This document shows, piece after piece, positions 918-56,561 of a DNA stretch of 64,000 nt. The translations under genes were made by a program, and so were the position numbers. Under the pieces are notes generated by a model. It had not been told where the DNA came from and did not search any database. It worked only from the letters and a program-made list of their open reading frames with translations. Source of the DNA: Dokdonia sp. Dokd-P16 (GTDB lineage: Bacteria > Bacteroidota > Bacteroidia > Flavobacteriales > Flavobacteriaceae); assembly GCF_003095655.1 (NCBI RefSeq), contig NZ_CP029151.1, positions 3,223,001 to 3,287,000 of the forward strand, given 5' to 3'. Within the stretch, counting starts at the first letter, position 1. Every line of letters begins with the position of its first letter.

Positions 918-937
918 TACGCTTTCGCGAAAGCGTA
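918..937. repeat. Iterated palindrome, full 20-base form
   Basis: Perfect palindrome TACGCTTTCGCGAAAGCGTA between priA (5' end) and the DUF2147 gene (3' end), directly beside the latter's terminator. One of 23 related copies in this window. Confidence 0.95.
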
Positions 938-940
938 AAA

Positions 941-967
941 AAAGCCGCTCCCAAAAGAAACGGCTTT
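941..967 (-). terminator. Rho-independent terminator of the DUF2147 gene
   Basis: Stem AAAGCCG/CGGCTTT with a 13-base loop, followed on the minus strand by a run of T. It lies 21 bases past the stop of the DUF2147 gene. Confidence 0.8.
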
Positions 968-988
968 CTATATTAAACAGCAACATCA

Positions 989-1417
989 TTAACGTCTTAC
1001 CCACTGTTGCGTTCTAAACAAGAATGCTATATAACCACGAACGTTTAAGACATTTTTATCATCCTCGTCAATCCACAGTTTAGCTTTATACTCCTTCCCT
1101 TTCTCTGGATCAAAAATAGTTCCTCCCTCATATTCGTCATCATCTTTTTCAAGATTCTTAATGATATCAAGACCTATGAGTGGTTTATCATAATCTTCAC
1201 CTTTACAGTAAATACAAGTCTTGTCACGATTTGCTGGATTTAATATATCTATAATCTTACCAAACACTTTACCATCCTTTTTATAGATTTCTATGATAGA
1301 CATTGCCTCACCAGTCTCATCATCTATAGTTTTCCATTGGCCAAAAATAGTTCCTTGTTGCGCTTGTATGCTCACTGCAAAAAATAGCAGCATAAGTAGG
1401 GTTATGTGTTTTTTCAT
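989..1417 (-). CDS. Secreted DUF2147 protein
   Basis: A 142-residue secreted protein of the DUF2147 family, whose function is unknown. A signal peptide (MKKHITLLMLLFFAVSIQAQ) precedes the conserved pattern: GQWKTIDDETGEA, EIYKKDGKVFGKI, a CIYCKG cysteine pair near residue 67, PLIGLDII, GGTIFDPEKGKEY and C-terminal VRGYIAFLFRTQQW. I place the start at the ATG at 1417; the codon three residues upstream is TTG. The gene stands alone, between its own terminator and the terminator of the next gene. Length is normal for the family. Confidence 0.85.
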   Translation of the reverse strand: MKKHITLLMLLFFAVSIQAQQGTIFGQWKTIDDETGEAMSIIEIYKKDGKVFGKIIDILNPANRDKTCIYCKGEDYDKPLIGLDIIKNLEKDDDEYEGGTIFDPEKGKEYKAKLWIDEDDKNVLNVRGYIAFLFRTQQWVRR

Positions 1418-1475
1418 AGTATTCAAGTTTTAAAATTCTAAAATTAATTTGATTTACAGAGAGATTATAATGCAT

Positions 1476-1510
1476 AAAAAATGGCGAATCACAAGTGATC
1501 GCCATTTTTA
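1476..1510 (-). terminator. Terminator of the chalcone-isomerase-like gene
   Basis: Perfect 11-base stem AAAAATGGCGA/TCGCCATTTTT, ending in T-rich sequence on the minus strand just past the stop of the gene at 1526. Confidence 0.85.
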
Positions 1511-1525
1511 ATATGATTTTGATTA

Positions 1526-2089
1526 TTAGTTTTTACCTAACATCGCATCTTTAAGATCATCATCTGCTGGGTCGTTACCTAACCAGATTCCGAAAAGAGC
1601 TTTCTTAAAATCAAGACCTGCAATAGATCCTAATTCTTTTCCGTTTTTGTAAACTACAGTTCCTTTTCCTTTGATATAAGCGATATCAAAAACGTTTGTT
1701 TTTACAATTTTATCGCTGAAAAAACCTTTGAACTGCTCAATCTTCGCATCTAGCGAACTTGTGTTTCCATTCATTGAAGCATCAAAACCATCATCTACAG
1801 CTCCTATCATTTTCTTACTAGAAACCATTCCAGAAACGATGTCTAATTTAAGCGCCATAGTCTCGTCTGCATTGATAATAGCTGCTGCATCACTCTTTTT
1901 TGACACTAGATATAATCCTCCAGCATAAAGGTCAAATACTACCTTCTCTCTCATACCAGCACCATTAAGGATAAGTTCTGTACCTCCCATTGTTACTGAG
2001 TTAGGTAAGGTTGCATCTCCTACTACTGTTTGTGCCTGGCTAACTGTAAGACTACATACGGCTACTAAAGCTAATAAATACTTTTTCAT
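1526..2089 (-). CDS. Secreted chalcone isomerase-like protein
   Basis: A 187-residue exported protein of the chalcone-isomerase-like fold (Chalcone_3 type). The signal peptide MKKYLLALVAVCSLTVSQAQ precedes the recognisable stretch LNGAGMREKVVFDLYAGGLY around residues 41-60. The middle is rich in small residues, and it ends with a conserved KALFGIWLGNDPADDDLKDAMLG block. Bacterial members are periplasmic and probably bind lipids; an enzymatic role is unproven. The start is set by the signal peptide. Immediately upstream of the ATG is an (AC)9 dinucleotide run, which is unusual for this genome. Confidence 0.8.
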   Translation of the reverse strand: MKKYLLALVAVCSLTVSQAQTVVGDATLPNSVTMGGTELILNGAGMREKVVFDLYAGGLYLVSKKSDAAAIINADETMALKLDIVSGMVSSKKMIGAVDDGFDASMNGNTSSLDAKIEQFKGFFSDKIVKTNVFDIAYIKGKGTVVYKNGKELGSIAGLDFKKALFGIWLGNDPADDDLKDAMLGKN

Positions 2090-2115: not shown

Positions 2116-3063
2116 TTAATTTGTACTAGGGTTTTTGTGTAAAATCCGTAATTTTTGAAGGGTTGCATTAAGCTCATAACCCAGTAAAATCAAGTTCGAA
2201 TTTAACCAAATATAAAGCATCATTATTAATAATGCACCAATAGAGCCATACAACTCATTATATGTGCCAAAATTATCAATATAAATACCAAATAGGTAGG
2301 TAGTTATCATAAATAATATTGTTGTCATTAATGCTCCTGGTGAAAAGAAACGGCTTTTACGCCCTTCTTTGGTTCCGAAATAATATAGCGTAGCAATTAC
2401 CGAATAAATCATAATGATTAAAAACAGGTTCTTACCTATACTTAATAGCGCGATATCCATATCGTTACTCATAAAGTCACGCTCCCTCAATGAATTAAGT
2501 AATAATTCAAAATAAATCACTACTGATATAGTAGTAACCAACAACAATGCCAGAATAATAGAAGTACCTAAAGCAACCGCATATTGCCTAAAGAAATTAC
2601 GACTTATCTCATTATAATGAGAACCCTCAAAACCACTAAAAATAGCATTGACACCGTTTGCCGTTAAAAACAAGGCTAGCAAACCAGCAAAGGAAGCAAG
2701 ACCTGCTCTCTCATTCTGTGAGATATCGATTATGATAGGTTTAAAGAAATCTAAGGATTGCGCAGGTATGAGCTCATAAATAAAGGCCATGAACTTGATA
2801 TCAAAATTCTCAATAGGAACATATGGCACTAGATTGAGTAAAAATAACAAAGCTGGAAAAATGGCCATAAAAAAACTATAAGCAATAGAACTTGCGCGGG
2901 ATCCCAGAGCTCCCTGGATAATCCCATTAAAATAAGCGCGTAGCAAGTAAAGAAGCGTCATTCCCTCAAACCCAGGAATTACGACACTATCCAAGATACT
3001 CACAAGCCAACAAAAAGGCTTGAATCTCATTAAACGTTGCTCTATCGTCTTATCTGATGCCAT
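2116..3063 (-). CDS. YihY/BrkB-family inner membrane protein
   Basis: A 315-residue polytopic membrane protein of the YihY/BrkB (UPF0761) family. About six hydrophobic segments are visible, with the family hallmarks ASSIAYSFFMAIFPALLF near residue 60, GLLALFLTANGVNAIF near 125 and C-terminal YGSIGALLIMMLYIWLNSNL. Function is unknown; it was once mislabelled ribonuclease BN. The ATG overlaps the nadC stop by one base (TAATG), so it is translationally coupled to nadC. It ends just before the GT repeat. Confidence 0.85.
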   Translation of the reverse strand: MASDKTIEQRLMRFKPFCWLVSILDSVVIPGFEGMTLLYLLRAYFNGIIQGALGSRASSIAYSFFMAIFPALLFLLNLVPYVPIENFDIKFMAFIYELIPAQSLDFFKPIIIDISQNERAGLASFAGLLALFLTANGVNAIFSGFEGSHYNEISRNFFRQYAVALGTSIILALLLVTTISVVIYFELLLNSLRERDFMSNDMDIALLSIGKNLFLIIMIYSVIATLYYFGTKEGRKSRFFSPGALMTTILFMITTYLFGIYIDNFGTYNELYGSIGALLIMMLYIWLNSNLILLGYELNATLQKLRILHKNPSTN

Positions 3064-3923
3064 TAAACTGCTTTCAGACTAAGATCTAAGTTATAGACAG
3101 AGTGTGTGAGCGCTCCACTAGAAATATAATCTACACCACAAAGAGCGTACTCACGTATCGTCTCTTCATTAATACCACCAGAAGATTCTGTAAGGCATTT
3201 ATCGCCTATTAATGCTACTGCTGTGCGAGTATCCTCATAATTAAAATTATCTATAAGAATGCGATATACATGCTCGTGATTTTCAAGTATTTCTTTAATC
3301 TCATCCAGACTTCTAGCTTCGACTATAATTTTGAGATCTCGCTGCTCTTCCTTAAGGTAATCCACTGTTTTGAGAATCGCTTTTGTAACACCACCCGCAA
3401 AATCAATATGATTATCTTTAAGCATAATCATATCATACAGTGCAAAACGGTGATTCTCACCACCACCTATTTTAACAGCCCATTTCTCTAGCGCTCTTAT
3501 TCCTGGTGTGGTCTTTCTTGTGTCTAGAATTTTAGTATCTGTTCCTTCTAAAAGGTTCACAAAGAACTTTGTCTTTGTCGCAATAGCACTCATACGCTGC
3601 ATAGCATTAAGCACTAAGCGTTCTGCTTTGAGAATGCTTTGGCTTGAACCAGATACATAAAATGCAATATCACCATATTTTACAGCGTCTCCATCCTTTA
3701 ATACGTCCTCTACTTCTAATGAAGGATCTACGTGTGCAAATACCGCTTTCGCGAAAGCGCAACCCGCAAGGACACCCTCATCCTTTACAAGTAGTTTTGC
3801 TTTTCCAGTGGCGGTGGCTGGTATACAAGCCAGTGAGCTATGGTCTCCATCACCTAAATCCTCTCTAATAGCATTTGCAATTATACCTTCTATCTCAATC
3901 TGAAATTGTGCTTCTGAAATCAT
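3063..3923 (-). CDS. nadC: Nicotinate-nucleotide pyrophosphorylase (quinolinate phosphoribosyltransferase)
   Basis: The 286-residue enzyme that converts quinolinate and PRPP to nicotinate mononucleotide in de novo NAD synthesis. Visible motifs are EDLGDGDHSS, a KAERLVLNAMQRMSAIAT helix, DTRKTTPGIRALEKWAVKIGGGENHR for substrate binding and C-terminal SSGGINEETI/GVDYISSGALTHS. I start at the ATG at 3923 (MISEAQFQIEIEG). The open frame runs further upstream, but that extension would cross the divergent rlmH promoter and lacks family similarity. The iterated palindrome sits inside the gene and encodes AFAKA. Confidence 0.93.
   Translation of the reverse strand: MISEAQFQIEIEGIIANAIREDLGDGDHSSLACIPATATGKAKLLVKDEGVLAGCAFAKAVFAHVDPSLEVEDVLKDGDAVKYGDIAFYVSGSSQSILKAERLVLNAMQRMSAIATKTKFFVNLLEGTDTKILDTRKTTPGIRALEKWAVKIGGGENHRFALYDMIMLKDNHIDFAGGVTKAILKTVDYLKEEQRDLKIIVEARSLDEIKEILENHEHVYRILIDNFNYEDTRTAVALIGDKCLTESSGGINEETIREYALCGVDYISSGALTHSVYNLDLSLKAV
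3745..3758. repeat. Iterated palindrome inside nadC
   Basis: Exact core GCTTTCGCGAAAGC in the nadC coding sequence, read as AFAKA. Confidence 0.93.
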
Positions 3924-3992
3924 ATTTATATTGTTCCTTTGATGTAAAAATAAGCAAAAGGTAAAGCTTCTTACTTCTGTATGGTAGTTTTG

Positions 3993-4000
3993 TATTTTTG
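3993..4000 (+). promoter_or_regulatory. Promoter -7 element (TATTTTTG) of rlmH
   Basis: TATTTTTG matches TAnnTTTG and ends only four bases before the rlmH ATG at 4005, so the transcript would be leaderless or nearly so. Confidence 0.5.
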
Positions 4001-4004
4001 CCAC

Positions 4005-4478
4005 ATGAATATTAAACTTCTCTGCGTAGGCAAGACCGATAATAAACAGTTGCAAGCACTGATAGACACGTATAGCAAACGGCTCAATTTTTATGTGAAA
4101 TACTCCATAGAAATTCTCCCGGATATTAAAAATGTCAAAAATCTTAGTGAGCAAGAACAGAAAAACAAGGAAGGCGACCTTATTTTATCTAAAATAGGCC
4201 CTTATGATCACCTCTTGCTATTTGATGAAAATGGAAAAACGTTTACAAGCGTAGGCTTTTCAAAATTTCTACAAAAGAAAATGAATAGTGGTATTAAGAC
4301 CCTAGTCTTTGTTATAGGTGGTCCTTATGGATTTTCTCAAGAGGTTTATGCAAAAGCACAAGGAAAAGTATCCTTATCATCCATGACCTTTTCTCACCAG
4401 ATGGTTAGACTCTTTATTACCGAGCAAATTTATAGAGGTTATACTATATTAAAAGGGGAACCATATCATCATCAATAA
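4005..4478 (+). CDS. rlmH: 23S rRNA pseudouridine-1915 N3-methyltransferase
   Basis: A 157-residue SPOUT-class methyltransferase that modifies pseudouridine 1915 of 23S rRNA in assembled ribosomes. Seen: N-terminal MNIKLLCVGKTDN, the knot region LVFVIGGPYGFSQEVYAKA, the LSSMTFSHQMVRLFITEQIYR block and the conserved C-terminal YTILKGEPYHHQ. The ATG at 4005 gives exactly the family length; the upstream in-frame ATG at 3981 would lie ahead of the promoter element. It is divergent from nadC. Confidence 0.95.
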   Translation: MNIKLLCVGKTDNKQLQALIDTYSKRLNFYVKYSIEILPDIKNVKNLSEQEQKNKEGDLILSKIGPYDHLLLFDENGKTFTSVGFSKFLQKKMNSGIKTLVFVIGGPYGFSQEVYAKAQGKVSLSSMTFSHQMVRLFITEQIYRGYTILKGEPYHHQ

Positions 4479-4627: not shown

Positions 4628-5248
4628 ATGGGATCACAATCAGGTACAAAAAAGAAAAACAGGCTGCAATTATTGCACCAGTACTACGTGTACACTGGTT
4701 TTTATACTTTTTTAAAGGATGCTCTTAAAAAAGCACTCCCTCCTATCTTATTTGTTGTGGCAGCTATAGTTCTTATTCACTATTTTGTAATAGACCTTAA
4801 TACTGCACTTCAATATGTAATAGACAACTATTCAAATCTACTTGTCCTTACCTTATTTTTTGTTTCAGAATCTATACTTGGTATAATACCTCCAGAGCTT
4901 TTTATTGCATGGAGTGATAAGACGAGTAATCCTATTTTATACCTATCTCTTATTGCACTATTATCATATGCTGGTGGAGCAGTTTCGTATTTTACAGGAA
5001 GAGCAGCTTTAAAAATTCCATCCGTTCATAATTACCTAGAGGTAAAAATGGAGAAGCACTTAAAAAATGCTCGTAAATGGGGAGGCTTTTTAATTCTTGT
5101 AGGAGCTTTACTCCCGCTTCCTTTTGCTGTAGCAAGTCTTGCTGCAGGTATGATTCGTTTTGAGTTTAAGTATTGGGCATTATTTGGTCTTGCTCGTTTT
5201 GTAAGATATGCAATATACGGAGCAGCAATTTTTAGCCTTGTATCCTAA
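4628..5248 (+). CDS. VTT-domain (DedA/SNARE-associated-like) membrane protein
   Basis: A 206-residue inner membrane protein with the VTT fold. Seen: a hydrophobic segment near residues 38-55, the LGIIPPELFIAWSD re-entrant motif, LLSYAGGAVSYFTGRA and the C-terminal GGFLILVGALLPLPFAVASLAAGMIRF block typical of VTT proteins. Members are linked to phospholipid trafficking or proton-motive-force homeostasis, but the substrate here is unknown. The start is chosen from the promoter position. The stop overlaps the rdgB ATG (TAATG), so the two genes are coupled. Confidence 0.8.
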   Translation: MGSQSGTKKKNRLQLLHQYYVYTGFYTFLKDALKKALPPILFVVAAIVLIHYFVIDLNTALQYVIDNYSNLLVLTLFFVSESILGIIPPELFIAWSDKTSNPILYLSLIALLSYAGGAVSYFTGRAALKIPSVHNYLEVKMEKHLKNARKWGGFLILVGALLPLPFAVASLAAGMIRFEFKYWALFGLARFVRYAIYGAAIFSLVS

Positions 5249-5826
5249 TGAAACTAGTTTTTGCAACACACAATCACAATAAACTTCGCGAAGTTCAAGC
5301 ATTAGTGCCTGATCATATTACCCTCCTATCTTTAACAGACATAGGATGCACAGAAGAAATCATTGAGGATGCAGATACCATCGAAGGTAACGCACTTCTT
5401 AAAGTAAATCATGTGCTAACTAACTATGGGTACGATTGTTTTGCAGATGATACTGGTCTTGAGGTAGATGCGCTTGATGGTGCACCAGGAGTATATTCAG
5501 CAAGGTATGCTGGTGAGCAAAAAGATAACTCGGATAATATGAATAAGCTCTTAATTAATCTCGCTACTAAGCAAGACCGTGGAGCACAGTTTAAAACAGT
5601 TATCGCTTTCGCGAAAGCAAATAAAACAGAAACCTTTACAGGTATATGCAGAGGTGAAATCACCAAAGAGCGTCATGGTGATGGCGGTTTTGGGTACGAT
5701 CCTATTTTCAAACCCGAAGGTTACGATGCAACATTTGCACAAATGGCTCCATCTTTAAAAGGAAAAATAAGCCACAGAGGCCTTGCTGTATCTGCATTTC
5801 TTGAATTTCTACATAACCAGGAATAA
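5248..5826 (+). CDS. rdgB: XTP/dITP pyrophosphatase (HAM1/RdgB family)
   Basis: The 192-residue house-cleaning enzyme that hydrolyses XTP, dITP and ITP to monophosphates. Motifs: MKLVFATHNHNKLREVQAL at the N-terminus, FADDTGLEVDALDGAPGVYSAR with the catalytic acidic residues, GICRGEI, GGFGYDPIF and KGKISHRGLAV. The ATG overlaps the upstream VTT stop. The iterated palindrome lies in the gene and encodes AFAKA just before the GICRGEI strand. Confidence 0.95.
   Translation: MKLVFATHNHNKLREVQALVPDHITLLSLTDIGCTEEIIEDADTIEGNALLKVNHVLTNYGYDCFADDTGLEVDALDGAPGVYSARYAGEQKDNSDNMNKLLINLATKQDRGAQFKTVIAFAKANKTETFTGICRGEITKERHGDGGFGYDPIFKPEGYDATFAQMAPSLKGKISHRGLAVSAFLEFLHNQE
5605..5618. repeat. Iterated palindrome inside rdgB
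   Basis: Exact core GCTTTCGCGAAAGC, read as AFAKA in the RdgB frame. Confidence 0.93.
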
Positions 5827-8903: not shown

Positions 8904-8916
8904 GCTTTCGCGAAAA
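8904..8916. repeat. Iterated palindrome, one-sided variant
   Basis: GCTTTCGCGAAAA, with one arm intact and the other replaced by AAAATATGA. It lies at the 3' end of the peroxiredoxin gene and forms an inverted pair with the copy at 9646: 22 of 23 bases agree when one copy is reverse-complemented. Confidence 0.85.
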
Positions 8917-8924
8917 TATGATTT

Positions 8925-9560: not shown

Positions 9561-9645
9561 AATTTGAATTTTTCAATTTACATCTTGGTCTTTAAAAGTG
9601 CATCAACTTTACACTTATTGACAGCTTATATTTTAAGAAATCAAA

Positions 9646-9658
9646 TTTTCGCGAAAGC
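9646..9658. repeat. Iterated palindrome, one-sided variant
   Basis: TTTTCGCGAAAGC, intact on the right arm and followed by GTAC. Upstream of the peroxiredoxin gene; inverted partner of the copy at 8904. Confidence 0.85.
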
Positions 9659-12811: not shown

Positions 12812-13617
12812 GTTTACAAAAACACTTATTAAATATTTTAAGTACGCTTTCGCGAAAGCGTAACACTATGCTGCAGCTACTTGTCATACTGTTATTCTCT
12901 TGCGATACAGAAAATGCAAATGATTGCCTCCAAACGGATGGTGATATCATCACTTATGAAATTGACGTACCTGTTTTTACAAAAATCCAAATGGAAGATG
13001 ACATTCGGGTGCTCATAAAGCAGGGAGCAGAACAACAAGTGATTATTGAAACAGGTGAAAATCTTGTATCGGACTTAAATTTTGAAGTATCAGAAGGAAC
13101 ACTTGTACTACAGAACAATAATAGTTGTAATATTCTAAGGGAGTATGGACGAACACTAGTAACAATAACGTCTCCAAACATTAATTTTATAAGACAAGCA
13201 TCTTCTTTTGACATAGAAAGTGAAGGAATCCTCTCCTACCCAGCTCTAACATTATGGAGCAACACAAGTCCAAATGGCGTTAACATAGATGATCCTAATA
13301 AAAACGGTAATGTGTTTTTAACTCTAGATGTACCGTCGTTAACAATATCTGCAAATGGTTCTAGCAACTTTAAAATATCCGGCAGAGCAGATCAAATGAA
13401 TATCAACTTTAGTGATGAGTTTCCGCAGTTTGATGGGAGAGACTTTCTAGTAGATGATATTCAGTTTAGACACACTAGCGCCGCTGCGATGGTATTTAAC
13501 CCTATAAGCAGTCTTAAAGGAACCATACGCGCCACGGGCGATGTAATTGTTGTAAACGAACCACCTTTAGTCGAGGTAGAAGTGCTATTTACGGGACAAC
13601 TAATCTTTGAAGACTAA
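12808..13617 (+). CDS. Lipoprotein with GIN domain (DUF2807, adhesin-head-like)
   Basis: A 269-residue lipoprotein. The signal sequence has an n-region TLSRKRN, a hydrophobic core MLQLLVILLF and a lipobox FSC at Cys32. The rest is the right-handed beta-helical GIN domain found in Bacteroidetes surface proteins (DIRVLIKQGAEQQVIIETGENL, GRTLVTITSPNINFIRQASSF, LTISANGSSNFKISGRADQ). Function is unknown. I keep the ATG at 12808: it overlaps the previous stop, and the later ATG at 12868 would leave a signal peptide without positive charge. The iterated palindrome supplies that charged n-region. Confidence 0.75.
   Translation: MSLQKHLLNILSTLSRKRNTMLQLLVILLFSCDTENANDCLQTDGDIITYEIDVPVFTKIQMEDDIRVLIKQGAEQQVIIETGENLVSDLNFEVSEGTLVLQNNNSCNILREYGRTLVTITSPNINFIRQASSFDIESEGILSYPALTLWSNTSPNGVNIDDPNKNGNVFLTLDVPSLTISANGSSNFKISGRADQMNINFSDEFPQFDGRDFLVDDIQFRHTSAAAMVFNPISSLKGTIRATGDVIVVNEPPLVEVEVLFTGQLIFED
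12846..12859. repeat. Iterated palindrome in a signal-peptide coding region
   Basis: Full 20-base form at 12843-12862, read as TLSRKRN at the start of the GIN-domain lipoprotein. Confidence 0.93.
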
Positions 13618-17685: not shown

Positions 17686-17699
17686 GCTTTCGCGAAAGC
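17686..17699. repeat. Iterated palindrome between divergent genes
   Basis: Exact core GCTTTCGCGAAAGC, flanked AT/GT, in the region between the fasciclin gene and the large propeller gene. Confidence 0.93.
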
Positions 17700-17821: not shown

Positions 17822-20800
17822 ATGAAACAACTCTTCTCTCTGTTGCTACTGTGCGTCTGTACGGTAGTTTCTGCCCAAAAACTTGACATGTCCTTATTAA
17901 AGGATATGCAACCCCGTAATATAGGTCCAGGCGGTATGTCTGGCCGTGTGACTGCTATAGACGTCGTTACAGATGATCCAGATGTAATGTATGTAGGTAC
18001 TGCTTCTGGTGGTCTATGGAAATCTACCTCTGGCGGAATTAAATGGGATCCTATTTTTGAAAATGAGCTTACAGCATCTATAGGAGCTGTTGCGATACAA
18101 CAATCTAATCCATCTGTGATATGGGTAGGTACGGGAGAAGGTAATCCTCGTAACTCTCTTAATGGTGGTTATGGTGTTTATAAATCTCTTGATGGTGGTA
18201 AGTCCTGGAAGTCTATGGGACTTGAGAAAACAAGACATATACACCGCGTAATTATAGATCCTACTAATCCAGATATCGTTTACGTAGGCGCTATAGGTTC
18301 GCCATGGGGTGAGCATCAAGAAAGAGGTGTTTATAAAACTACAGATGGCGGTAAGACCTGGAATAAGATCTTGTTTACAAATATTAAGTCTGGTGTTGCA
18401 GATATGGTGATGGATCCTACTAACCCTAACAAGCTTATTGTTGCCATGTGGGAACACAAACGTGATCCTTGGTTTTTTAAATCTGGTGGTGAAGGTTCTG
18501 GTATCTTCATGACTCATGATGGTGGTGATAATTGGAAACAACTGAGTGATAAAGATGGTTTGCCTAAAGGCGAACTAGGACGTATAGGTTTATCTATTGC
18601 CCCAGGAAGTCCTAATGTGGTATATGCACTTGTAGAGGCAAAAAAGAATGCTCTATACCGTTCTAACGACGGTGGTTTTAACTGGAAGAAGATCAATGAT
18701 AAGAGTGATATAGGTAACAGACCATTTTACTACAGTGATATTCACGTAGATCCTCAAAATGAAAATCGTGTCTTTTCTGTGTTTACATATGTAAATGTTT
18801 CTGAGGATGGTGGAAAGAACTTTGACCAACTTATGGGTGCTTATGGAGTAGATAATGGAGTACACCCAGATCACCACGCATGGTGGATTCACCCTAATAA
18901 CGGGAAGTTCATGATGGATGGTAATGACGGCGGACTTAACATCACAAAAGACGGTGGGAAAACATGGCGATTTATAGGTAACCTACCTGTAGCACAGTTC
19001 TATCATATTAATGTAGATAATGAGTTTCCTTATAATGTATATGGAGGTATGCAAGATAACGGCTCTTGGAGAGGTCCTGCTTATGTATGGAAAGCTCAAG
19101 GAATACGTAATGATTACTGGCAAGAGATTTCCTTTGGAGATGGATTTGATGTAATCCCTGATCCAGATGATAGTCAGTTTGGATGGACTATGAGTCAGCA
19201 GGGATCTGTGAGTCGCTATGATTGGAAAACTGGAAATAACTACGGAGTAAAGCCTACTCATCCAGACCCAGATGTATTTTTACGTTTTAACTGGAACTCG
19301 GCTATAAACATTGATCCTTTTGATAACAGTACTATTTACTTTGGAAGTCAGTTTGTACATAAATCTACAGATAAAGGACTTACATGGGAAGTAATCTCTC
19401 CAGATCTAACGACAAACAATCCTGAGAAACAAAAACAATCAGAATCTGGTGGGCTTTCCATGGATGCTACAGGAGCAGAAAATCATACAACGATTCTTGT
19501 AATTGAGCCTTCTCCACTGGAAAAAGATATGTTCTGGGTAGGTACAGATGACGGTCGCGTACATTATACTCAAAATGGTGGGCAATCTTATACTGATGTG
19601 TCAAAAAGCCTAAAAGGGCTTCCAGAAGGAAGCTGGATTGTACAAATCAAGGCTAGTAATAAAAATAAAGGAGAAGCATTATTAGTAGCAAACGATTACC
19701 GTCGTTTCAACTATACTCCGTATGCATACAGAACTACAAACTATGGTAAATCATGGACTCGTATTGTAGATGAGAATGATGTACAAAGTTATGCACTTGC
19801 TATAATAGAAGATCCAGAAGAGAAAAACCTTCTCTTTCTAGGTACAGACGATGGTTTATATGTGTCTATAGATGCTGGTAATAACTGGCAAAAATGGACT
19901 AAAGGATTCCCTACCACTTCGGTTAAGGATCTTGTAATTCATCCTAGAGAGCAGGATCTTGTGATTGGAACTTTTGGACGTGCTGCATGGGTTCTTGACG
20001 ACATAAGACCATTACGAGCGATTGCTAAGGATAGAAGTACGCTTTCGCGAAAGCTAAAACTCTTCAACCCTCCTACTGCATATGATGCCGCATACCAGCA
20101 ACCTACGGGAAGTCGTTTTGGCGCAGATGCTCTTTACAACGGAGAGAATCGCGGAAGTGGTGCACAGATAGCATATTACTTTACGAAAGAAAAGCCTACA
20201 GCTTCAGATAGTTCTAAGCGCAACGCAGATGATAATGATGATATAGATAACGATGTTCCAGATGGAGAAGACACTGCTGAAATATCTGATGATGATGATA
20301 ACACTACAGAAGTAAAAGATGTAAAGTGGGACTCGATTCACTTAAAAATCTACGACGGCGCACGCCAGATTCGTCATTTAAAGTGGAAAACCCCAGACAG
20401 CACTGGAATTCATAAAATGACTTGGTATATGCGTGAAGCTGGTGGAGATCGCCCTTCTCGTTCAATTAGAAAACGTAATAACGAGCCAGGAGGGGTTTCT
20501 GTAAAGCCAGGAAATTACAAACTAGTAATGCAATATGGTGATCAATCAAGTGAGTCTTCTATTGAAGTAGCAAGTGATCCTCGTTATGATGTTCCTGCTA
20601 AGGCTATTAATGATGCTTATAACACTGGAAAGCAACTGCAAGCAATGTCACAAACCGCTGCAGATGCTGTAAAACAACTAGTACAAAGCAAAACAATCGC
20701 TAGTGATTATAAGAAGATGATTAAAAAACTAGATGATGATAAAGCTTATAAAAGCGAACTCAAATCAATAGGAGAAATGACTAAGCGTATTGATGAGGTT

Positions 20801-31594: not shown

Positions 31595-31608
31595 GCTTTC
31601 GCGAAAGC
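31595..31608. repeat. Iterated palindrome between divergent genes
   Basis: Exact core, flanked AC/GC, 20 bases before the ATG of the DUF853 ATPase gene. Confidence 0.93.
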
Positions 31609-36289: not shown

Positions 36290-36867
36290 AATTCTAAAAA
36301 GTTTTTAAGTATTTGTTCTCCCACACTACTAGATTTTTCTGGGTGAAACTGTGTTCCATAAAAATTATCTTTTGTAAAAGCACTTCCGTAAGGAATTCCA
36401 TAAGAGGTGGTTGCTATGGTTTCGGTGGTTACTGGAGCATAAAAACTATGCACCATATAAATAAATGATCCATCCTCTACTCCTTTAAATAATGGAGATT
36501 TAAGATCTGTGATCTTGTTCCACTGTATTTGTGGGACTTTTACGCTTTCGCGAAAGCGTAACACATCTACATCAAAGATTCCTAGCCCTTCTGTATTACC
36601 TTCTTCAGAACGGTTACACATAAGTTGCATCCCAAGACAGATTCCTAAAACAGGTTGCTTTAAGGTAGGAATCACTTTATCAAGACCTGTTTCTCTCAGT
36701 TTTGACATGGCACTACTCGCCTCGCCTACTCCTGGAAAAATCACCTTATCTGCCAAACGAATTTCTTCTTCATCATTGCTTAAAGTGGCTTCAAATCCTA
36801 AGCGCTCTATCGCAAATTTTATGCTCTGTATATTACCAGCGCCGTAATTAATTATTACTATTTTCAT
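36286..36867 (-). CDS. hisH: Imidazole glycerol phosphate synthase, glutaminase subunit
   Basis: A 193-residue class I glutamine amidotransferase that feeds ammonia to HisF. The triad is complete: Cys in [10 protein letters not shown] (about 77) and His-Glu in [11 protein letters not shown]-terminal [15 protein letters not shown] is typical. Its partner HisF is not in this window. The iterated palindrome lies at about residues 104-109 and encodes LRFRESV. Confidence 0.95.
36541..36560. repeat. Iterated palindrome, full form, inside hisH
   Basis: TACGCTTTCGCGAAAGCGTA in coding sequence, read as RFRES. Confidence 0.95.
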
Positions 36868-38003
36868 TACAGCATACCTTTTGTGGATGGTAAAATCATC
36901 TTATCTGCATCTCTCTTTACAGCTACTTTAATAGCCTTTGCAAATGCTTTAAAGATGGCTTCTATTTTGTGGTGCTCGTTTGTTCCTTCGGCTTTGATAT
37001 TAAGGTTTGCCTTTGCACCATCTGTAAACGATTTAAAGAAGTGATAAAACATTTCTGTAGGCATTTTACCTATCATCTCACGATTAAAATCTGCTTCCCA
37101 AACTAGCCAGTTTCTTCCTCCAAAGTCTATAGCAACTTGCGCAAGACAATCGTCCATAGGCAAGCAAAAACCGTAACGTTCTATTCCTAATTTATTTCCT
37201 AAAGCGATGGCAAACACTTCTCCAAGGGCAATTGCTGTGTCTTCAATAGTGTGGTGTTCATCTACTTCTAGGTCTCCTTTTACTTGGATATCTAAATCCA
37301 TTTGCCCATGACGAGCAATTTGATCCAGCATATGGTCAAAGAATGAAAGCCCAGTATCAATATTTGATTTACCAGTACCATCTAGATTAAGTGTGATGTT
37401 TATGTCTGTCTCGTTTGTTTTTCGCGAAAGCGTAGCAACACGTCTTTCTAACTTAAGAAACTCATAAATCTTTTGCCAATCATTAGTCTCTAAGGCAATA
37501 TCTTTATTTAAATCATCTTGTGAGATAGTGATTTCTCCCGTACCAAGATTAGTATCATCATTAATAAATATCCCTTTTGCTCCTAAGTTTATTGCTAGTT
37601 GCATATCTGTAAGGCGGTCACCTATTACAAAAGAGTTAGCAAGATCATACTCCTCAGAAAAGTATTGAGTTAATAAACCTGTTCCAGGTTTTCTAGTGTT
37701 TTTATTTTCGTGCGGAAATGTTCTGTCTAAAAACACATTATCAAAAACAACTCCTTCGTTTTCAAAAGACTTCATTATAAAATTATGCACTGGCCAGAAT
37801 GTATCTTCTGGAAATGATTCTGTACCTAAACCATCTTGATTTGTAATCATCACAAGCTCATAATCGAGCTCCTGCGCAATCTTACCTAACCAAGTAAAAC
37901 ACTTAGGGTAGAATATCATTTTTTCAAACGCATCGATTTGTTCATCTACCGTTTCTTTAATCATTGTACCATCACGGTCTATAAAAAGGACTTTTTTAGC
38001 CAT
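36867..38003 (-). CDS. hisB: Bifunctional histidinol phosphatase / IGP dehydratase
   Basis: A 378-residue fusion. The N-terminal HAD phosphatase (1-~165) has [11 protein letters not shown] with the nucleophile Asp, [10 protein letters not shown] and [13 protein letters not shown]. The C-terminal IGP dehydratase (~195-378) has the manganese-binding [28 protein letters not shown] and [16 protein letters not shown]. It catalyses two non-consecutive steps of histidine synthesis. A one-sided palindrome sits in the interdomain linker ([10 protein letters not shown]). It is joined to hisC and hisH by one-base overlaps. Confidence 0.96.
37419..37431. repeat. Iterated palindrome, one-sided variant, in the hisB linker
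   Basis: TTTTCGCGAAAGC, followed by GTAGC; read as LSRK between the two HisB domains. Confidence 0.88.
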
Positions 38004-39067: not shown

Positions 39068-40351
39068 TTATTGTAATTTTTTAAGTCTAAGAGTTACTGC
39101 ATTTCTATGTGCATCAAGTCCTTCTGCAGCAGCCATAAGCTCAATAGCTGGACCTATATTTTGAATCCCTTTTGGTGATATTTTTTGAAAAGTCATAGAC
39201 TTCATAAAACTATCAAGATTTACGCCGCTGTATTGTTTTGCATAACCATTAGTAGGTAGCGTGTGATTTGTTCCAGATGCATAATCTCCAGCACTCTCAG
39301 GCGTATAATTACCTATAAATACAGATCCTGCATTCATGATATTATCCACATAAAAGTCTTCGTTTTCCATGCAAACAATAAAATGCTCTGGGCCATACTC
39401 ATCAATTAATGCTAAAGCGGTTTCATCGTTTTCAACATATATCAGTTTACTGTTTTCGATGGCTTTTTCTGCAATATGCTTTCGCGAAAGCGTACTCATC
39501 TGCATTTCTACTTCTTTTTCAACATCGTCAATGAGTTTACGAGAAGTTGCCACTAAAATAACTTGACTATCAACACCGTGCTCTGCCTGGCTTAATAAAT
39601 CTGACGCTACAAAACTCGCATCTGCCGAATCATCTGCCACCACTAATAACTCTGAAGGTCCAGCAGGCATATCGATTGCTACACCATGCTTTGTTGCTAT
39701 TTGTTTTGCAACTGTGACAAACTGATTTCCTGGACCAAATATTTTATATACTTGAGGCACCGTCGCTGTTCCAAAAGTCATCGCAGCAATCGCCTGGATA
39801 CCTCCTACTTTAAAAATTTTAGTAACTCCGCTCAGCTTTGCGGTGTATAAAATTGCAGGATTTACATTTCCATTTTTATCCGGAGGTGTACAAAGTACAA
39901 TTTCTTTACAACCGGCAATATTTGCAGGAGTAGCAAGCATCAATATTGTCGAAAATAATGGCGCTGTTCCTCCTGGAATATAAAGTCCTACTCTTTGAAT
40001 AGGTCGTTTTTCTTGCCAGCAATCTACTCCATCTGTTGTAGTAACTGCTACTCTAGAAGTCTTTTGAGCTGTATGAAAACGTTCAATATTTCCTTTTGCT
40101 AGCTGTATCGCCTCTTTTAATTCTATAGATAACGAATTTTCAGCATCTCGTATTTCATGATCAGATACAGTGATAGTATCTAGCGTAACATTATCAAAAA
40201 TGGACGTGTATTTTGCAACCGCCTCATCTCCCTTTAACTTTACCTCTTTGAAGATATCGTTTACTGTAGCCTCGATATCATCTACTGTTTGAGTAGGTCT
40301 TTTAAGGATTTTCTCCCACTCACTTCTTTCTGGATTATAGATCTTATTCAT
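39068..40351 (-). CDS. hisD: Histidinol dehydrogenase
   Basis: A 427-residue zinc- and NAD-dependent enzyme for the last two oxidations to histidine. Motifs: RVGLYIPGGTAPLFSTILM, KIFGPGNQFVTVAKQ, IDMPAGPSELLVVAD, LLSQAEHGVDSQ with zinc ligands, the PEHFIV catalytic motif and SAGDYASGTNHTLPT. The iterated palindrome lies in the helix after SQVILVATSRKLID, encoding MSTLSRKHI. It is separated from hisG by 12 bases. Confidence 0.96.
   Translation of the reverse strand: MNKIYNPERSEWEKILKRPTQTVDDIEATVNDIFKEVKLKGDEAVAKYTSIFDNVTLDTITVSDHEIRDAENSLSIELKEAIQLAKGNIERFHTAQKTSRVAVTTTDGVDCWQEKRPIQRVGLYIPGGTAPLFSTILMLATPANIAGCKEIVLCTPPDKNGNVNPAILYTAKLSGVTKIFKVGGIQAIAAMTFGTATVPQVYKIFGPGNQFVTVAKQIATKHGVAIDMPAGPSELLVVADDSADASFVASDLLSQAEHGVDSQVILVATSRKLIDDVEKEVEMQMSTLSRKHIAEKAIENSKLIYVENDETALALIDEYGPEHFIVCMENEDFYVDNIMNAGSVFIGNYTPESAGDYASGTNHTLPTNGYAKQYSGVNLDSFMKSMTFQKISPKGIQNIGPAIELMAAAEGLDAHRNAVTLRLKKLQ
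39478..39491. repeat. Iterated palindrome inside hisD
   Basis: Exact core, flanked AT/GT, read as TLSRKH. Confidence 0.93.
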
Positions 40352-43377: not shown

Positions 43378-43391
43378 GCTTTCGCGAAAGC
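43378..43391. repeat. Iterated palindrome between prohibitin-like and PepSY-like genes
   Basis: Exact core, flanked AA/GT, beside the long hairpin. Confidence 0.93.
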
Positions 43392-44264: not shown

Positions 44265-46298
44265 TTACGTGAGTCCGTTATACTTGCGCATAAACCACTC
44301 AATAGAAAGTAGTAAGGCTATTATAAATAATAACCATTTCCAATCTATTAAAGGTACGATTTTTTCCGTGCTTTTCTGTATAGGTTTGTATCGAGTATCT
44401 TTCAAAAGATCTTCAATAAGTTGGTCTCCTGTTGCGCTCGTATAAAGGGCTGCTGCTGTATTAGACGCTAGAGTACGTAGTTCTGTTACATTTGCATTTA
44501 AGAATTGTTGTTCTATCTCAAAAGAAACTATTGTAAAACTACCAGATCGAGCGAGTCCTTGATCTATAACCGACACTGTAAACTTGTAATTACCCGGCTC
44601 TAGATTATTCATCGCAACCTGATATGTATTCTTATTAAGCAATAACGGTATATCTGTCACTTTACCTGTCTCTTCATGGACTACACGTATGGATAAACGT
44701 GCTCGTGTATCAAAGGTGTAATTTTTATCAAAGTACTGCGCATATAATGTGACATCACCATTCCCATAATAGAAGGACTCATAATCTATATTGAGACGAC
44801 TCTTTTTCTTATTTGATGCTGCATATTGCACGAGATTATCAATAAAATTGTCAAAATCTTCAAAGCTGTTATTATTAATAAAACTCTGTGCTCTCCATCG
44901 CCACAAGCCTTCTCCTAGAATGTATACTTCGCGCTGTCCATTTGTATCAGTAGTTGCTATAAGTGGATTTTCAGTATTTAAAGATCCTATAGTTTGGGTC
45001 AGTGCAACATCTACTTCTGTCTTAAAATTAACGTCACCAAAGCTTGTCTTTAACGGCGGAAAGTCAGCAAAGCCTATATCTTCTATCACAAAAGCAGAGA
45101 AATTCACATTGAGTTCGCCTTGTACTTCCTCTTGCTGTCCAGTGATTTCTTGATTAATGGTATTCTGGAAGGTATTTACAGCATTCCAATCTGTATTTGC
45201 GCCAGCGACTGTAATACTATTTTTGGATAACGAAGTAAGTTGCTCATAAACATTCTTGAAACGTGCATCTGGCTGATACAATATTACTAGCTCATAGTCA
45301 TTGAGCTTACTTATACTTTCTAGAGGGTTTGAAAAAGTAACCGTGCGTAGTCTGTTACTCTCTATACTCTTTTTAAGCATACCCACATCTGGATGAACGA
45401 TGTTACTTACTATAAGAACATTCGTTTTTTGATCGATAACTTCAATCGCAAAGTTCTTACTATTGTTTTTTATGTTTTTCTCTGTCGTATTAGGTGCAAG
45501 CTGTATAGCATATTGCCTAACTCCTACGCTCGTTGCAGGTAATAGCAAATTGAAAACCTGTGATTCTTTGTCTGGACTAAAAGTAACTCGCTCAGAATGT
45601 ACTACTGCCCCTCCTGAAGTAACCGTTAATTGTGAGCTTACTGTATTGTTCCCGTTATAAGTGGCAAAAATCTCTACCGGAAACTTATTATTGATATAGG
45701 CATATCTATTTACGTTTATCTGCCCTAATTTAAGATCATCGTATGTAATTGTATCTCCTAGAACTACAGGATATATCTGCTGATTGAGGTTTTTTGAGGT
45801 GTATTGATAAGCCTCACCATAGGTTTGATTCCCATCGGTGAGTAAGATAACTGGTGCTATTTCTGTACCGTAAATGTCTTCAAGACTATGAAGAACATTA
45901 GAAATGTTAGTCTGCTTTTCCTGAAAATCTAAAGTATCTAAACGTTTAAATTCTTGACCGAAACTATAAAACTGTACGTCAAAAGCATTGTTTAAAGATT
46001 CGCTTTCGCGAAAGCGTGATACTAAATCACTACTCTCATCATCATATTCCAAGTGTTTAATACTTGCCGTATTATCTACAGCTACCGCTAGTGATGGTTT
46101 TACGGTAACGTATGTAACTTGTTTATAAGAAGGATTAATTAAAATAATAAGCAATCCAAAAACGCTTAAAAATCTTATAAGCGCATAAACTTTATTCCGG
46201 CTGGTCTTATATTTTGCCTTATAAAAATACTGAAAAACCGCTATTCCCAAGGCGAGAATAGCAGCTCCAATAATTAATAATAATGTTTCTGTTTGCAA
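44265..46298 (-). CDS. VWA-like membrane protein (BatA-like)
   Basis: A 677-residue membrane protein. Two N-terminal spans (LLLIIGAAILALGIAVFQYF; FLSVFGLLIILINPSY) and one near the C-terminus (WLLFIIALLLSIEWFM) bracket a large periplasmic region. That region begins with a VWA-like fold: LAVAVDNTASI in place of the DxSxS motif and PVILLTDGNQTYG. A glutamine-amidotransferase-like middle (VLIVSNIVHPDVGMLKKSIE) and Ig-like C-terminal domain follow. It resembles Bacteroidetes proteins near BatABD genes. The function is unknown. The palindrome encodes SRFRESE inside the VWA part. Confidence 0.72.
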   Translation of the reverse strand: MQTETLLLIIGAAILALGIAVFQYFYKAKYKTSRNKVYALIRFLSVFGLLIILINPSYKQVTYVTVKPSLAVAVDNTASIKHLEYDDESSDLVSRFRESESLNNAFDVQFYSFGQEFKRLDTLDFQEKQTNISNVLHSLEDIYGTEIAPVILLTDGNQTYGEAYQYTSKNLNQQIYPVVLGDTITYDDLKLGQINVNRYAYINNKFPVEIFATYNGNNTVSSQLTVTSGGAVVHSERVTFSPDKESQVFNLLLPATSVGVRQYAIQLAPNTTEKNIKNNSKNFAIEVIDQKTNVLIVSNIVHPDVGMLKKSIESNRLRTVTFSNPLESISKLNDYELVILYQPDARFKNVYEQLTSLSKNSITVAGANTDWNAVNTFQNTINQEITGQQEEVQGELNVNFSAFVIEDIGFADFPPLKTSFGDVNFKTEVDVALTQTIGSLNTENPLIATTDTNGQREVYILGEGLWRWRAQSFINNNSFEDFDNFIDNLVQYAASNKKKSRLNIDYESFYYGNGDVTLYAQYFDKNYTFDTRARLSIRVVHEETGKVTDIPLLLNKNTYQVAMNNLEPGNYKFTVSVIDQGLARSGSFTIVSFEIEQQFLNANVTELRTLASNTAAALYTSATGDQLIEDLLKDTRYKPIQKSTEKIVPLIDWKWLLFIIALLLSIEWFMRKYNGLT
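46002..46015. repeat. Iterated palindrome inside the VWA-like gene
   Basis: Exact core, flanked TC/GT, read as RFRES. Confidence 0.93.
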
Positions 46299-47203: not shown

Positions 47204-47217
47204 GCTTTCGCGAAAGC
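47204..47217. repeat. Iterated palindrome in the fabG leader
   Basis: Exact core, flanked AC/AT, downstream of the inferred fabG promoter. Confidence 0.93.
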
Positions 47218-50295: not shown

Positions 50296-50308
50296 GCTTT
50301 CGCGAAAA
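50296..50308. repeat. Iterated palindrome, one-sided variant
   Basis: GCTTTCGCGAAAA followed by TATGA; first member of an inverted pair in the lpxA-efp gap. Confidence 0.85.
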
Positions 50309-50393
50309 TATGAAAAGATTATCAATCTCTCCGTTTTATGAATTTCTCTGCTCACCTTATGTTAGGCAAAAGCATGAGTGTTATGTTGTCAAA

Positions 50394-50406
50394 TTTTCGC
50401 GAAAGC
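50394..50406. repeat. Iterated palindrome, one-sided variant
   Basis: TTTTCGCGAAAGC preceded by CAAA; second member, inverted relative to the copy at 50296 and about 86 bases away. Confidence 0.85.
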
Positions 50407-54872: not shown

Positions 54873-54902
54873 TATTAAAAATTTTGGATTTCTATTTTTT
54901 AT

Positions 54903-54916
54903 GCTTTCGCGAAAGC
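54903..54916. repeat. Iterated palindrome in the leader of the HD-lpx operon
   Basis: Exact core, flanked AT/GT, eleven bases downstream of a TATATTTG element; probably transcribed but not translated. Confidence 0.92.
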
Positions 54917-54926
54917 GTATTACATA

Positions 54927-54954
54927 CAAATATAAGGTTTCGCCTTGCAAACAA
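54927..54954 (-). promoter_or_regulatory. Promoter of the HD-lpxD-lpxC-lpxA operon
   Basis: Minus strand TTG (54952-54954), 17 bases, TATATTTG (54927-54934): both halves of the Bacteroidetes promoter at good spacing. Confidence 0.65.
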
Positions 54955-54990
54955 GGAGCCTCTTAAAAACTAACATACTTAACTAATTAT

Positions 54991-56538
54991 ATGAGCAACA
55001 TACAAATACTTTGGGTAGATGACGAAATTGACTTACTTAAGCCACATATTTTATTTCTTGAAAAGAAGAATTATAGCGTAACTACCTGTGATAATGGCGC
55101 CGAAGCTGTAGAAATGATAGATGAGCAAAACTTTGACATCATTTTTCTTGATGAGAATATGCCTGGACTATCGGGTCTAGAAACACTAAGCGAAATCAAA
55201 AATAAACGGGAGAATGTTCCTGTTGTCATGATTACTAAAAGTGAAGAAGAGTATATTATGGAGGAAGCGATAGGCTCTAAAATAGTAGACTACCTTATTA
55301 AACCGGTAAATCCTAACCAGATATTACTGAGTTTAAAGAAGAATCTTGATCATAGTAGGTTAATAAGTCAAAAAACCACCTCTTCGTACCAGCAAGAATT
55401 CCGCAAGATTGCCATGGATTTATCTATGGTAAACAGCTTTGAAGAATGGTCTGAGCTTTACCAAAAGCTTATTTACTGGGAGATGGAGCTTGAAGGCATA
55501 GAAGATACAGGAATGTTTGAGATATTAGAATCTCAAAAATCTGAAGCAAATAATCAGTTTTGTAAATTTATTGATAAAAATTACCCAGATTGGTTTAACG
55601 GCTATGAGGGACCTACGATGTCTCACACCTTATTTAAAGACAAGGTACAACCACACCTTAAAAAAGGTAGTCCTACCCTATTCATTGTCATAGATAACAT
55701 GCGCTATGATCAATGGAAGGCTTTTGAGCCTCACCTTAATGCGCATTATAAAAAAGTACAAGAAGAACCTTATTACAGCATCTTACCTACGGCAACTCAG
55801 TATGCTCGTAATGCTATATTTTCTGGACTCATGCCAGAAGAGATGAAAAAGAAGCATCCAGACTTATGGCTTGATGATACAGATGAGGGAGGAAAAAATA
55901 TGCACGAAGCAGATTTTCTTGAGGCACAACTTAAAAGACTACGTCTTGACCTAAGCTGGGAATATCATAAAATCACCAACTTAAAAAATGGTAAAAAACT
56001 TGCCGATAATTTTAAATCTCAGAAAAATAATGATCTTACGGTAGTCGTTTACAATTTTGTAGATATGCTTTCTCATTCTAAAACAGAAATGGAAGTAATC
56101 AAAGAACTAGCTAGTAATGACAAGGCTTACAGGTCACTTACAGAAAGTTGGTTTAAAAATTCACCGTTACTCACGATGATACAGCAAGCGCAAGAGCTAG
56201 GCATGAAGCTTATACTTACTACAGATCACGGTACCATTAATGTCAAAAATCCATCTAAAGTTATAGGTGATAAGAATACTAGTCTCAACCTGCGTTATAA
56301 AACAGGTAGAAGTCTCACGTACGAAAATAAGGATGTACTCGCTGCCGAAGATCCTCGCACGATACACCTACCTACTATTAATATGAGTAGCTCATTCATA
56401 TTTGCAAAGGGAGACCTATTCTTTGCATATCCTAATAATTTTAATCACTACGTAAGTTATTATAGAAATACATACCAGCATGGAGGCGTAAGCCTTGAAG
56501 AAATGGTGATTCCTTTTGTCGTGCTTGAACCTAAATAG
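54991..56538 (+). CDS. porX: PorX: response regulator with PglZ phosphatase domain
   Basis: A 515-residue regulator of the type IX secretion system. The receiver domain (1-~120) has ILWVDDEIDLL, phosphorylation Asp in IIFLDENMPG and Lys in YLIKPVNPN. A helical linker follows, then a PglZ/alkaline-phosphatase-fold domain (~200-515): FIVIDNMRYDQWKAF, LPTATQYARNAIFSG, VYNFVDMLSHSK, LILTTDHGTI and YQHGGVSLEEM, which supply the nucleophile and zinc ligands. It works with the sensor PorY and sigma factor SigP in other species. Divergent from the lpx operon. Confidence 0.95.
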   Translation: MSNIQILWVDDEIDLLKPHILFLEKKNYSVTTCDNGAEAVEMIDEQNFDIIFLDENMPGLSGLETLSEIKNKRENVPVVMITKSEEEYIMEEAIGSKIVDYLIKPVNPNQILLSLKKNLDHSRLISQKTTSSYQQEFRKIAMDLSMVNSFEEWSELYQKLIYWEMELEGIEDTGMFEILESQKSEANNQFCKFIDKNYPDWFNGYEGPTMSHTLFKDKVQPHLKKGSPTLFIVIDNMRYDQWKAFEPHLNAHYKKVQEEPYYSILPTATQYARNAIFSGLMPEEMKKKHPDLWLDDTDEGGKNMHEADFLEAQLKRLRLDLSWEYHKITNLKNGKKLADNFKSQKNNDLTVVVYNFVDMLSHSKTEMEVIKELASNDKAYRSLTESWFKNSPLLTMIQQAQELGMKLILTTDHGTINVKNPSKVIGDKNTSLNLRYKTGRSLTYENKDVLAAEDPRTIHLPTINMSSSFIFAKGDLFFAYPNNFNHYVSYYRNTYQHGGVSLEEMVIPFVVLEPK

Positions 56539-56547
56539 AAATGTTAC

Positions 56548-56561
56548 GCTTTCGCGAAAGC
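56548..56561. repeat. Iterated palindrome after porX
   Basis: Exact core, flanked AC/GT, between the porX stop and its terminator. It is the last copy before a 7.4 kb stretch without any. Confidence 0.93.

Follow-up and report, generated by a model that had tools for sequence, protein, structure and literature searches.

Highly iterated palindromes of cyanobacteria, HIP1 (GCGATCGC) and its alternate forms, occur as hundreds of exact copies per genome, in coding and non-coding DNA and with weaker outer bases. One-off forms of HIP1 vary at the first and last positions (PMC4390886, accessible part). Abundant palindromes of this kind have no agreed function. A comparable element, the 14-mer palindrome GCTTTCGCGAAAGC, was analyzed here in a 64-kb stretch of the chromosome of Dokdonia sp. 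Dokd-P16 (hereafter the window; positions 3,223,001–3,287,000 of a single contig, NZ_CP029151.1, of the genome labelled G000). It shares the above traits with HIP1 but is longer (10-bp core, 22-bp consensus and G-poor flanks to 20–25 nt), and its host belongs to the Bacteroidota. Two methylase families that might serve the motif are missing from most Dokdonia examined. The Dokdonia motif is an independent case outside the cyanobacteria, and its abundance without these families helps to separate abundance from the idea of methylation.

Other repeated signals resemble the motif in single traits. DNA uptake sequences (DUS) of Neisseria and uptake signal sequences (USS) of Pasteurellaceae are likewise evenly spaced, strongly conserved and in excess outside genes, with a sharp drop to mismatched forms and a weak flank beyond a strong core; the Dokdonia motif differs in being palindromic, in the rarity of close pairs and in one-sided variants that are oriented to transcription and replication. 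Chi, the signal of RecBCD and AddAB, has a similar density, as generally quoted, and is directional as are the arms described below. Known Chi sites are 5–8 nt long and asymmetric, and the motif is set apart from them by its length, its palindromy and its two-arm recognition. parS and the Noc-binding site (NBS), bound by ParB and Noc, are, as their sequences are usually given, long and sharp palindromes with TTTC/GAAA arms. In contrast to these, the motif has about 800 genome-wide sites, not few or regional ones, and its carriers keep a ParB_N protein and parS-like sites. The initial annotation of the window, which had likened the palindrome to HIP1, chromosome-organizing sites, DUS and repetitive extragenic palindromic (REP) elements without equating it with any of them, was supported overall.

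The even spacing of the copies and their near-identity in related species suggest a protein that reads the palindrome all along the chromosome. Tentatively, the palindrome is proposed to be the target of a putative, probably dimeric, sequence-specific DNA-binding protein that would act on the intracellular chromosome, one interval at a time. We infer this protein and its effect from the sequence facts given below. Among these, the dependence of the arms on the interval they face is a quantitative clue that a protein or machine may read the site directionally over about 1 kb.

Abundance and distribution of the palindrome

The 18 exact copies in the window were all confirmed at the starts first claimed, and 808 copies were counted in the whole 3,623,447-bp contig, in which the reversed control pattern of the 14-mer did not occur. 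Six further window matches carried two mismatches, giving 24 matches in total versus 0.10 expected from dinucleotide shuffles at up to two mismatches. The 10-mer TTTCGCGAAA was kept in five of the six, raising its copies to 23, and was not kept in the sixth, at 16385. The five one-sided variants of the initial annotation all exist, although three of them start one base lower (9645, 37418 and 50393) than it had stated (9646, 37419 and 50394); the starts 8904 and 50296 stood. In 604 kb, 141 exact 14-mers were present, compared with about 0.0013 by an order-3 Markov estimate. Thus, the iteration claimed at genome scale was borne out, with a count neither near a Markov expectation nor confined to this region. 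Scans of the window with Rfam (gathering threshold) and for tRNAs were empty.

Within the genus, the motif was abundant throughout: each of the 18 Dokdonia genomes searched held 369–905 copies of the 14-mer, the two lowest counts being found in genomes that are 78% and 85% complete. Among 149 Flavobacteriaceae genomes sampled, the 14-mer reached at least 578 copies in two, 1–17 copies in 29 and was absent from 118. The 12-mer CTTTCGCGAAAG was counted in 397 genomes of the family (237 genera). Six genomes of three genera held 445–917 copies and the other 391 at most 21, with none in 293 of these; the reversed control of the 12-mer gave 0–3 copies per genome. Named contigs with the motif were titled Dokdonia or Nonlabens in 76 of 80 cases (80 of 112 matches were listed, the window's own record possibly not among them); for the relative genomes, these genus names are used by inference.

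In an RpoB tree of 30 genomes, Dokdonia and genome G207 fell into one clade with the motif-poor G144 (support 99/97), and Nonlabens was placed elsewhere. At least two changes of the carrier label were needed, and a single origin by this tree was rejected on these grounds: the system must have arisen twice, been transferred, or disappeared from the lineages in between. Trees of ParB and of the AddB-like protein were too weak or too long-branched to decide; in the latter, all six carriers lay on one side of a weak branch. G207, with 445 copies of the 12-mer, and G144, with 13, represent contrasting genera that adjoin Dokdonia in the RpoB tree.

Anatomy, spacing and turnover of the sites

The palindrome consists of the nearly invariant 10-bp core TTTCGCGAAA and two GC arms that grade outward; the consensus spans 22 bp. 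Of the 119 TCGCGA hexamers in 344 kb of G000, 95 sat in the core, and the wider consensus was TTACGCTTTCGCGAAAGCGTAA, as also obtained from 96 contexts of TTCGCGAA. The flanks, initially described as mostly AC on the left and GT on the right, hold as a tendency. Of the 15 one-mismatch 14-mers in 604 kb, 12 deviated at positions 1, 2, 13 or 14 and three in the core. Under an order-3 model, the exact 10-mer was 296- to 399-fold over-represented in three Dokdonia genomes, compared with 2.2- to 4-fold for its one-mismatch forms and 0.76–0.84 for its two-mismatch forms. In 69 kb sampled from five low-count genomes, the exact 10-mer occurred once.

Sites were collected from 638 kb of G000, 454 kb of G155 and 478 kb of G149, with genes called by a simple open reading frame (ORF) scorer. 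Both GC arms were present in 381 of these 459 sites and one arm in 78, and no site lacked both. A lost arm tended toward A, A/T, N, T and not toward random DNA, and its flank was somewhat less G-poor. Counted outward from the core, G made up 1–12% at positions 6–23 of full sites in non-coding DNA and 3–17% at positions 6–21 of coding sites, compared with 17–20% far from a site and 13–17% near stop codons without the motif. Nonlabens flanks were likewise G-poor, and a small sample from G207 was without clear signal. The left and right arms showed no consistent covariation beyond column composition, with isolated positions deviating both ways (z −2.9 to 3.1). All 78 changed sites were one-sided, and no compensated arm pair was seen among the 459. 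A hairpin or cruciform was rejected for the lack of consistent arm covariation. A Rho-type C-rich tract was rejected as well, since the G-poverty extends over only about 20–25 nt on each side and C is moderate.

Sites were found in coding and non-coding DNA and in every gene orientation, in agreement with the initial statement that the palindrome is not the operator of one regulon. Outside genes lay 256 of the 459, although 83–84% of the DNA is coding, and 56 were positioned between divergent genes. Among 247 intergenic sites, 76 were centred 12–27 nt past a stop codon, compared with 29.4 in simulations (maximum 45). The origin was located by parS-like sites and the GC-skew switch. Plotted between origin and terminus, as the initial annotation had suggested, the density showed no consistent trend, and a terminus- or origin-specific site was rejected on these grounds. 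Single 20-kb stretches held none or one copy (L011, accessory-looking and with none, and L014).

The gaps between sites were more even than in simulations that preserved the coding and non-coding classes. In G000, 15 of 153 gaps were shorter than 1 kb versus 48.25 simulated (minimum 29 in 2000 runs), and the coefficient of variation (CV) was 0.59 versus 0.96. Similarly, the Nonlabens genome G010 showed a gap CV of 0.51, with two of 73 gaps below 1 kb. For the 385 neighbouring pairs of the three Dokdonia genomes, the median gap was 2,877 bp; 334 gaps measured 1–6 kb and three were below 100 bp.

In two of the three genomes, the state of an arm depended on the gap it faces. With the three genomes combined, arms facing a gap below 1 kb were weak in 24 of 60 cases, compared with 43 of 710 for arms facing a longer gap (p = 2e-12). 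Both facing arms were weak in eight of 30 short pairs versus one of 355 long pairs (p = 4e-9), whereas the outer arms of the same short pairs were weak in four of 60 (p = 2e-5). By genome, weak facing arms at short versus long gaps amounted to 16/34 versus 18/286 in G000 and 6/10 versus 15/198 in G155. The weak arm of one-sided sites pointed toward the shorter gap in 22 of 29 cases in G000, nine of 18 in G155 and four of 11 in G149. When known short gaps were left out, the weak arm lay downstream with respect to transcription at 37 of 48 sites (p = 2e-4) and on the terminus side at 36 of 54 (p = 0.02); these directions are not fully independent of each other. The 30 short-pair loci were mostly unrelated; three alignments were found, of which two join pairs located on the same G149 stretch. 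An autoregulated gene beside the closest pairs was considered and rejected, as no shared regulator was seen among the seven pairs viewed.

Around the window sites, aligned core and GC-arm positions were 98.6–100% identical in G152, G153, G149 and G164, while positions more than 20 bp out were at background (94–96% in G152, 82–87% in G153, 75–80% in G149 and G164; unaligned positions left out). A site was counted as found when projection from the nearest aligned base put the 10-mer within 15 bp. Accordingly, 20 of the 23 window sites were found in G152, 22 in G153 and 19 each in G149 and G164, as well as seven each in G155 and G151, which are more distant and alignable only in part. Five positions held a site in a relative only, and ten further sites of the relatives lay in unaligned DNA. 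The differences at 3745 (G152), at 37418 (G153, G149 and G164) and at 36370 (site in G151 only) were gap-free substitutions, and coding site 36544 was absent from G151 inside a length-variable stretch. Thus, the comparison of orthologous loci proposed initially showed substitutions, not insertions, to underlie the differences between congeners at most comparable coding sites. In the close relative G152 (L133–L136), three window sites were lost, each by a single C-to-T or G-to-A change in the core.

Between genera, 17 of 39 ORF-borne Nonlabens sites had a match in the Dokdonia DNA examined, and four of these 17 had a Dokdonia site within 30 nt. Six of the matches reached at least 55% identity, one of them with a shared site; weaker matches may be paralogues. 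With only four of 17 shared, site positions turn over between the genera, and ancient positions common to Nonlabens and Dokdonia were rejected.

Candidate functions of the palindrome

A dimeric protein acting along the chromosome would fit the independence of the arms, each with its own flank, as well as the sharp shared core, the directional weakness and the evenness of the spacing. Each subunit would read one arm and its flank. Each arm would serve the DNA on its own side, and the dimer would anchor or insulate two neighbouring intervals, dividing the chromosome into units of about 1–6 kb. Between sites less than 1 kb apart, the facing arms would have little to serve and would decay. The preferred places, just past stop codons and otherwise intergenic, may be those where the bound protein disturbs least, and a domain boundary, looping or a tracking stop are candidate consequences. 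A weak arm downstream of transcription or toward the terminus is what may be expected of an intracellular chromosomal process. Going further, the sites may form a chromosome-wide positional code, in which a dedicated protein would recognize the 10-bp core together with both arms and the adjoining flanks, each arm acting independently and directionally, and in which the chromosomes of Dokdonia, Nonlabens and a third genus would be cut into units of about 1–6 kb, each bounded by two facing arms. This extension, drawn from sequence patterns, is rather doubtful. No description of a positional code of such kind was found in the literature searched, nor of the 14-mer or of a palindrome in Nonlabens together with Dokdonia, subscription journals being mostly outside the search; the accessible part of the genome paper on Dokdonia PRO95 does not mention palindromes.

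Several observations weigh against the dimeric protein. The facing-arm effect was absent in G149 (facing 2/16, outer 2/16, long gaps 10/226), which weakens this proposal and the positional code alike, and the two short pairs of Nonlabens and the one of G207 included no facing variant. Inside genes lie 203 of the 459 sites. No candidate binding protein was found, and no genome-wide comparison of gene content was made. In three Dokdonia, over-representation falls 100- to 170-fold once the 10-mer carries a mismatch, similar in size to the 82- to 92-fold given for uptake sequences under another null model (PMC1939737, accessible part), and an early impression that the motif was sharper than uptake sequences was dropped once the fold-drops were compared. 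Even spacing, conservation and an excess outside genes have also been reported for DNA uptake sequences (accessible parts of PMC2397512 and PMC1939737).

As a self-recognition sequence of the kind of Neisseria DUS or Haemophilus USS, the palindrome would lead to the preferential import of motif-bearing DNA, and molecular drive via recombination would spread and repair the sites. A role in chromosome organization is plausible. Uptake is plausible too, although we consider it on the whole unlikely. It accounts equally well for the spacing, for conservation far above that of the flanks and for sharpness, and it fits the excess outside genes. It is also in line with the lack of copies in stretch L011 and in the Nonlabens phage P12024S, where no 10-mer was present in 35.7 kb versus about 6–8 expected (the upper figure derives from motif-selected loci; the phage record annotates no integrase and gives no lifestyle). 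In the weaker flank that adjoins its strong core, the motif is reminiscent of USS, whose flanks are AT-rich (PMC7811141, accessible part), and a preference for self DNA is reported for one flavobacterium, Riemerella columbina (PMC7965970, accessible part). The arm rule and the orientation are explained less well: DUS and USS are non-palindromic and without orientation bias according to the accessible part of PMC1939737, whereas the one-sided variants of the present palindrome are oriented. Moreover, USS often lie close together, at less than 100 bp for 23% of those in one strain (PMC7811141, accessible part), compared with three of 385 gaps here, and copies of the motif are present on some phage contigs with structural genes. 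For DNA that may be recently acquired, the picture was mixed, with no copy in L011 or P12024S but copies on metal-efflux islands of other genera and on those phage contigs. A still weaker case can be made for a Chi-like directional recombination signal, in which an AddAB-type helicase-nuclease would read one strand and the palindrome would serve both directions. The arms do behave directionally, and 808 sites in 3.6 Mb lie within the density range commonly quoted for Chi in E. coli. PDDEXK_1 matches in long frames of AddAB size, presumably AddAB proteins, were found in nine of nine genomes, with two about 5–6 kb apart in seven of them. However, the same matches were found equally in the motif-poor or motif-free relatives G076, G040 and G025. 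A palindrome with a core of 10–14 bp and a 22-bp consensus also differs from short, asymmetric Chi, and joining both arms in one overlapping palindrome, as in 381 of 459 sites, would be needless for separate strand signals.

Maintenance of the HIP1 type, in which an orphan DNA methyltransferase would act together with mismatch repair directed by methylation (Elhai 2015, PMC4390886, accessible part), appears very unlikely. The high iteration and the concentration of one-mismatch deviations at the outer two positions of either end speak for it. The methylase search comprised the C5 family PF00145 and the N6_N4-type family PF01555, leaving out Dam-like, type I and other families. PF00145 was present in four of 11 Dokdonia, and the Nonlabens genome G010 matched both families, but PF00145 was absent from seven of 11 Dokdonia including G000, and PF01555 was above cut-off in none of the 11, with two weak matches below it. 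It is this lack of the two families in most carriers of the genus that makes methylation of the HIP type unlikely; in addition, an invariant core of 10 bp whose flanks reach about 25 nt is longer than methylase sites usually are. A reassignment of ParB to the motif, prompted by the resemblance of its arms to parS and NBS, was rejected because carriers retain both ParB and parS-like sites: ParB_N gave one match in 11 of 12 carriers and two in G150, and all ten carriers searched retained parS-like sites, which in the three profiled genomes lie close to the switch of GC skew. A signal at the level of transcription, such as an RNA hairpin, terminator or roadblock after genes, is as improbable as HIP1-type maintenance. 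The clustering of intergenic sites shortly past stop codons and the more frequent retention of the arm upstream in transcription would suit it; the missing arm covariation, the one-sidedness of all 78 changed sites, the many sites inside genes or between divergent genes and a separate terminator-like hairpin that follows at least one site (L157, by eye) would not. Finally, a dispersed mobile repeat, either REP-like or a transposon whose 10-bp target duplication yields the paired variants, is largely contradicted and hardly credible. The paired variants point toward each other, as terminal repeats do, and site 36544 is missing from G151 in a stretch of variable length. However, relatives align across the 50296/50393 interval, with the right-hand site full in G164 and near-full in G155. 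Since the DNA between the paired sites is present in orthologues, where the sites may be fuller, a transposon with target duplication was rejected for the facing pairs, and the gap-free substitutions at most comparable coding sites, together with the frequency of sites in genes, make REP-like dispersal unlikely.

Sites of the window, metal-efflux islands and phages

The matches in the window are listed in Table 1. The gene that ends just before the last site (ORF 54991–56538) encodes a response regulator fused to a PglZ domain (Pfam), an architecture which we take to be that of PorX of type IX secretion.

Table 1. Matches to the palindrome in the 64-kb window, with their surroundings and occurrence in relatives (strand of ORFs in brackets).
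Feature	Position	Context
Exact core GCTTTCGCGAAAGC	921–934	Intergenic; also in G152, G153
Exact core	3745–3758	Within ORF 3063–4154 (-); broken by one C-to-T in relative G152
Exact core	5605–5618	Within ORF 5248–5826 (+); kept in G152, G153, G149, G164
One-sided variant GCTTTCGCGAAAAT	8904–8917	Paired with 9645; weak arms face each other
One-sided variant ATTTTCGCGAAAGC	9645–9658	Partner of 8904
Exact core	12846–12859	Intergenic in gene set used; longest ORF starts just upstream; 10-mer kept in G152, G153, G149, G164, G155
Two-mismatch match without 10-mer	16385	Sixth such match
Exact core	17686–17699	Intergenic, divergent genes on either side
Exact core	20041–20054	Within ORF 17822–21085 (+, Sortilin-Vps10 match); kept in six relatives
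Exact core	21829–21842	Intergenic
Exact core	23224–23237	Centre 16 nt past a stop codon
Exact core	27212–27225	Within ORF 26446–27390 (-, NusB)
Exact core	28927–28940	Within ORF 27574–29331 (+, ABC transporter)
Exact core	31595–31608	Intergenic, just upstream of HerA-like helicase/ATPase gene 31628–33163
Exact core	36544–36557	Within ORF 36286–36867 (-, glutamine amidotransferase)
One-sided variant TTTTTCGCGAAAGC	37418–37431	Within ORF 36867–38003 (-)
Exact core	39478–39491	Within ORF 39068–40351 (-, histidinol dehydrogenase)
Exact core	43378–43391	Intergenic
Exact core	46002–46015	Within ORF 44265–46298 (-); kept in six relatives
Exact core	47204–47217	Intergenic
One-sided variant GCTTTCGCGAAAAT	50296–50309	Paired with 50393 (97 bp); weak arms face each other
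One-sided variant ATTTTCGCGAAAGC	50393–50406	Partner of 50296; centre 19 nt past a stop codon
Exact core	54903–54916	Intergenic in gene set used (inside longest TTG-started ORF); upstream of PglZ/response-regulator gene
Exact core	56548–56561	Centre 16 nt past stop of ORF 54991–56538

From each of six low-count genomes, one stretch around some of its copies was examined (L015–L020), and these stretches shared long blocks, mostly at 67–85% nucleotide identity. The one annotated, L015, carries genes for resistance-nodulation-division (RND) efflux, P-type ATPases and a multicopper oxidase. Judged by their sequences, the stretches may be transferred islands whose sites had been maintained in carrier genomes. 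The motif may tag metal-efflux islands that seemingly moved from carriers into genera with few or no copies, as a possible mark of the donor lineage. Motif spacings of 933 bp and about 2.45 kb recurred among L015–L020, which belong to Flavobacteriaceae with otherwise few or no copies.

At least 120 motif-bearing viral stretches were found among the matches listed, and two or more 10-mers were present in 14 of 120, in a set that was chosen for the motif. Of three multi-copy stretches inspected, two carry genes for head or portal proteins, and the third matches tail and virion families. The IMG/VR contigs L239 (head protease) and L273 (portal and major head genes) hold three motif copies in 11–12 kb, unlike phage P12024S.

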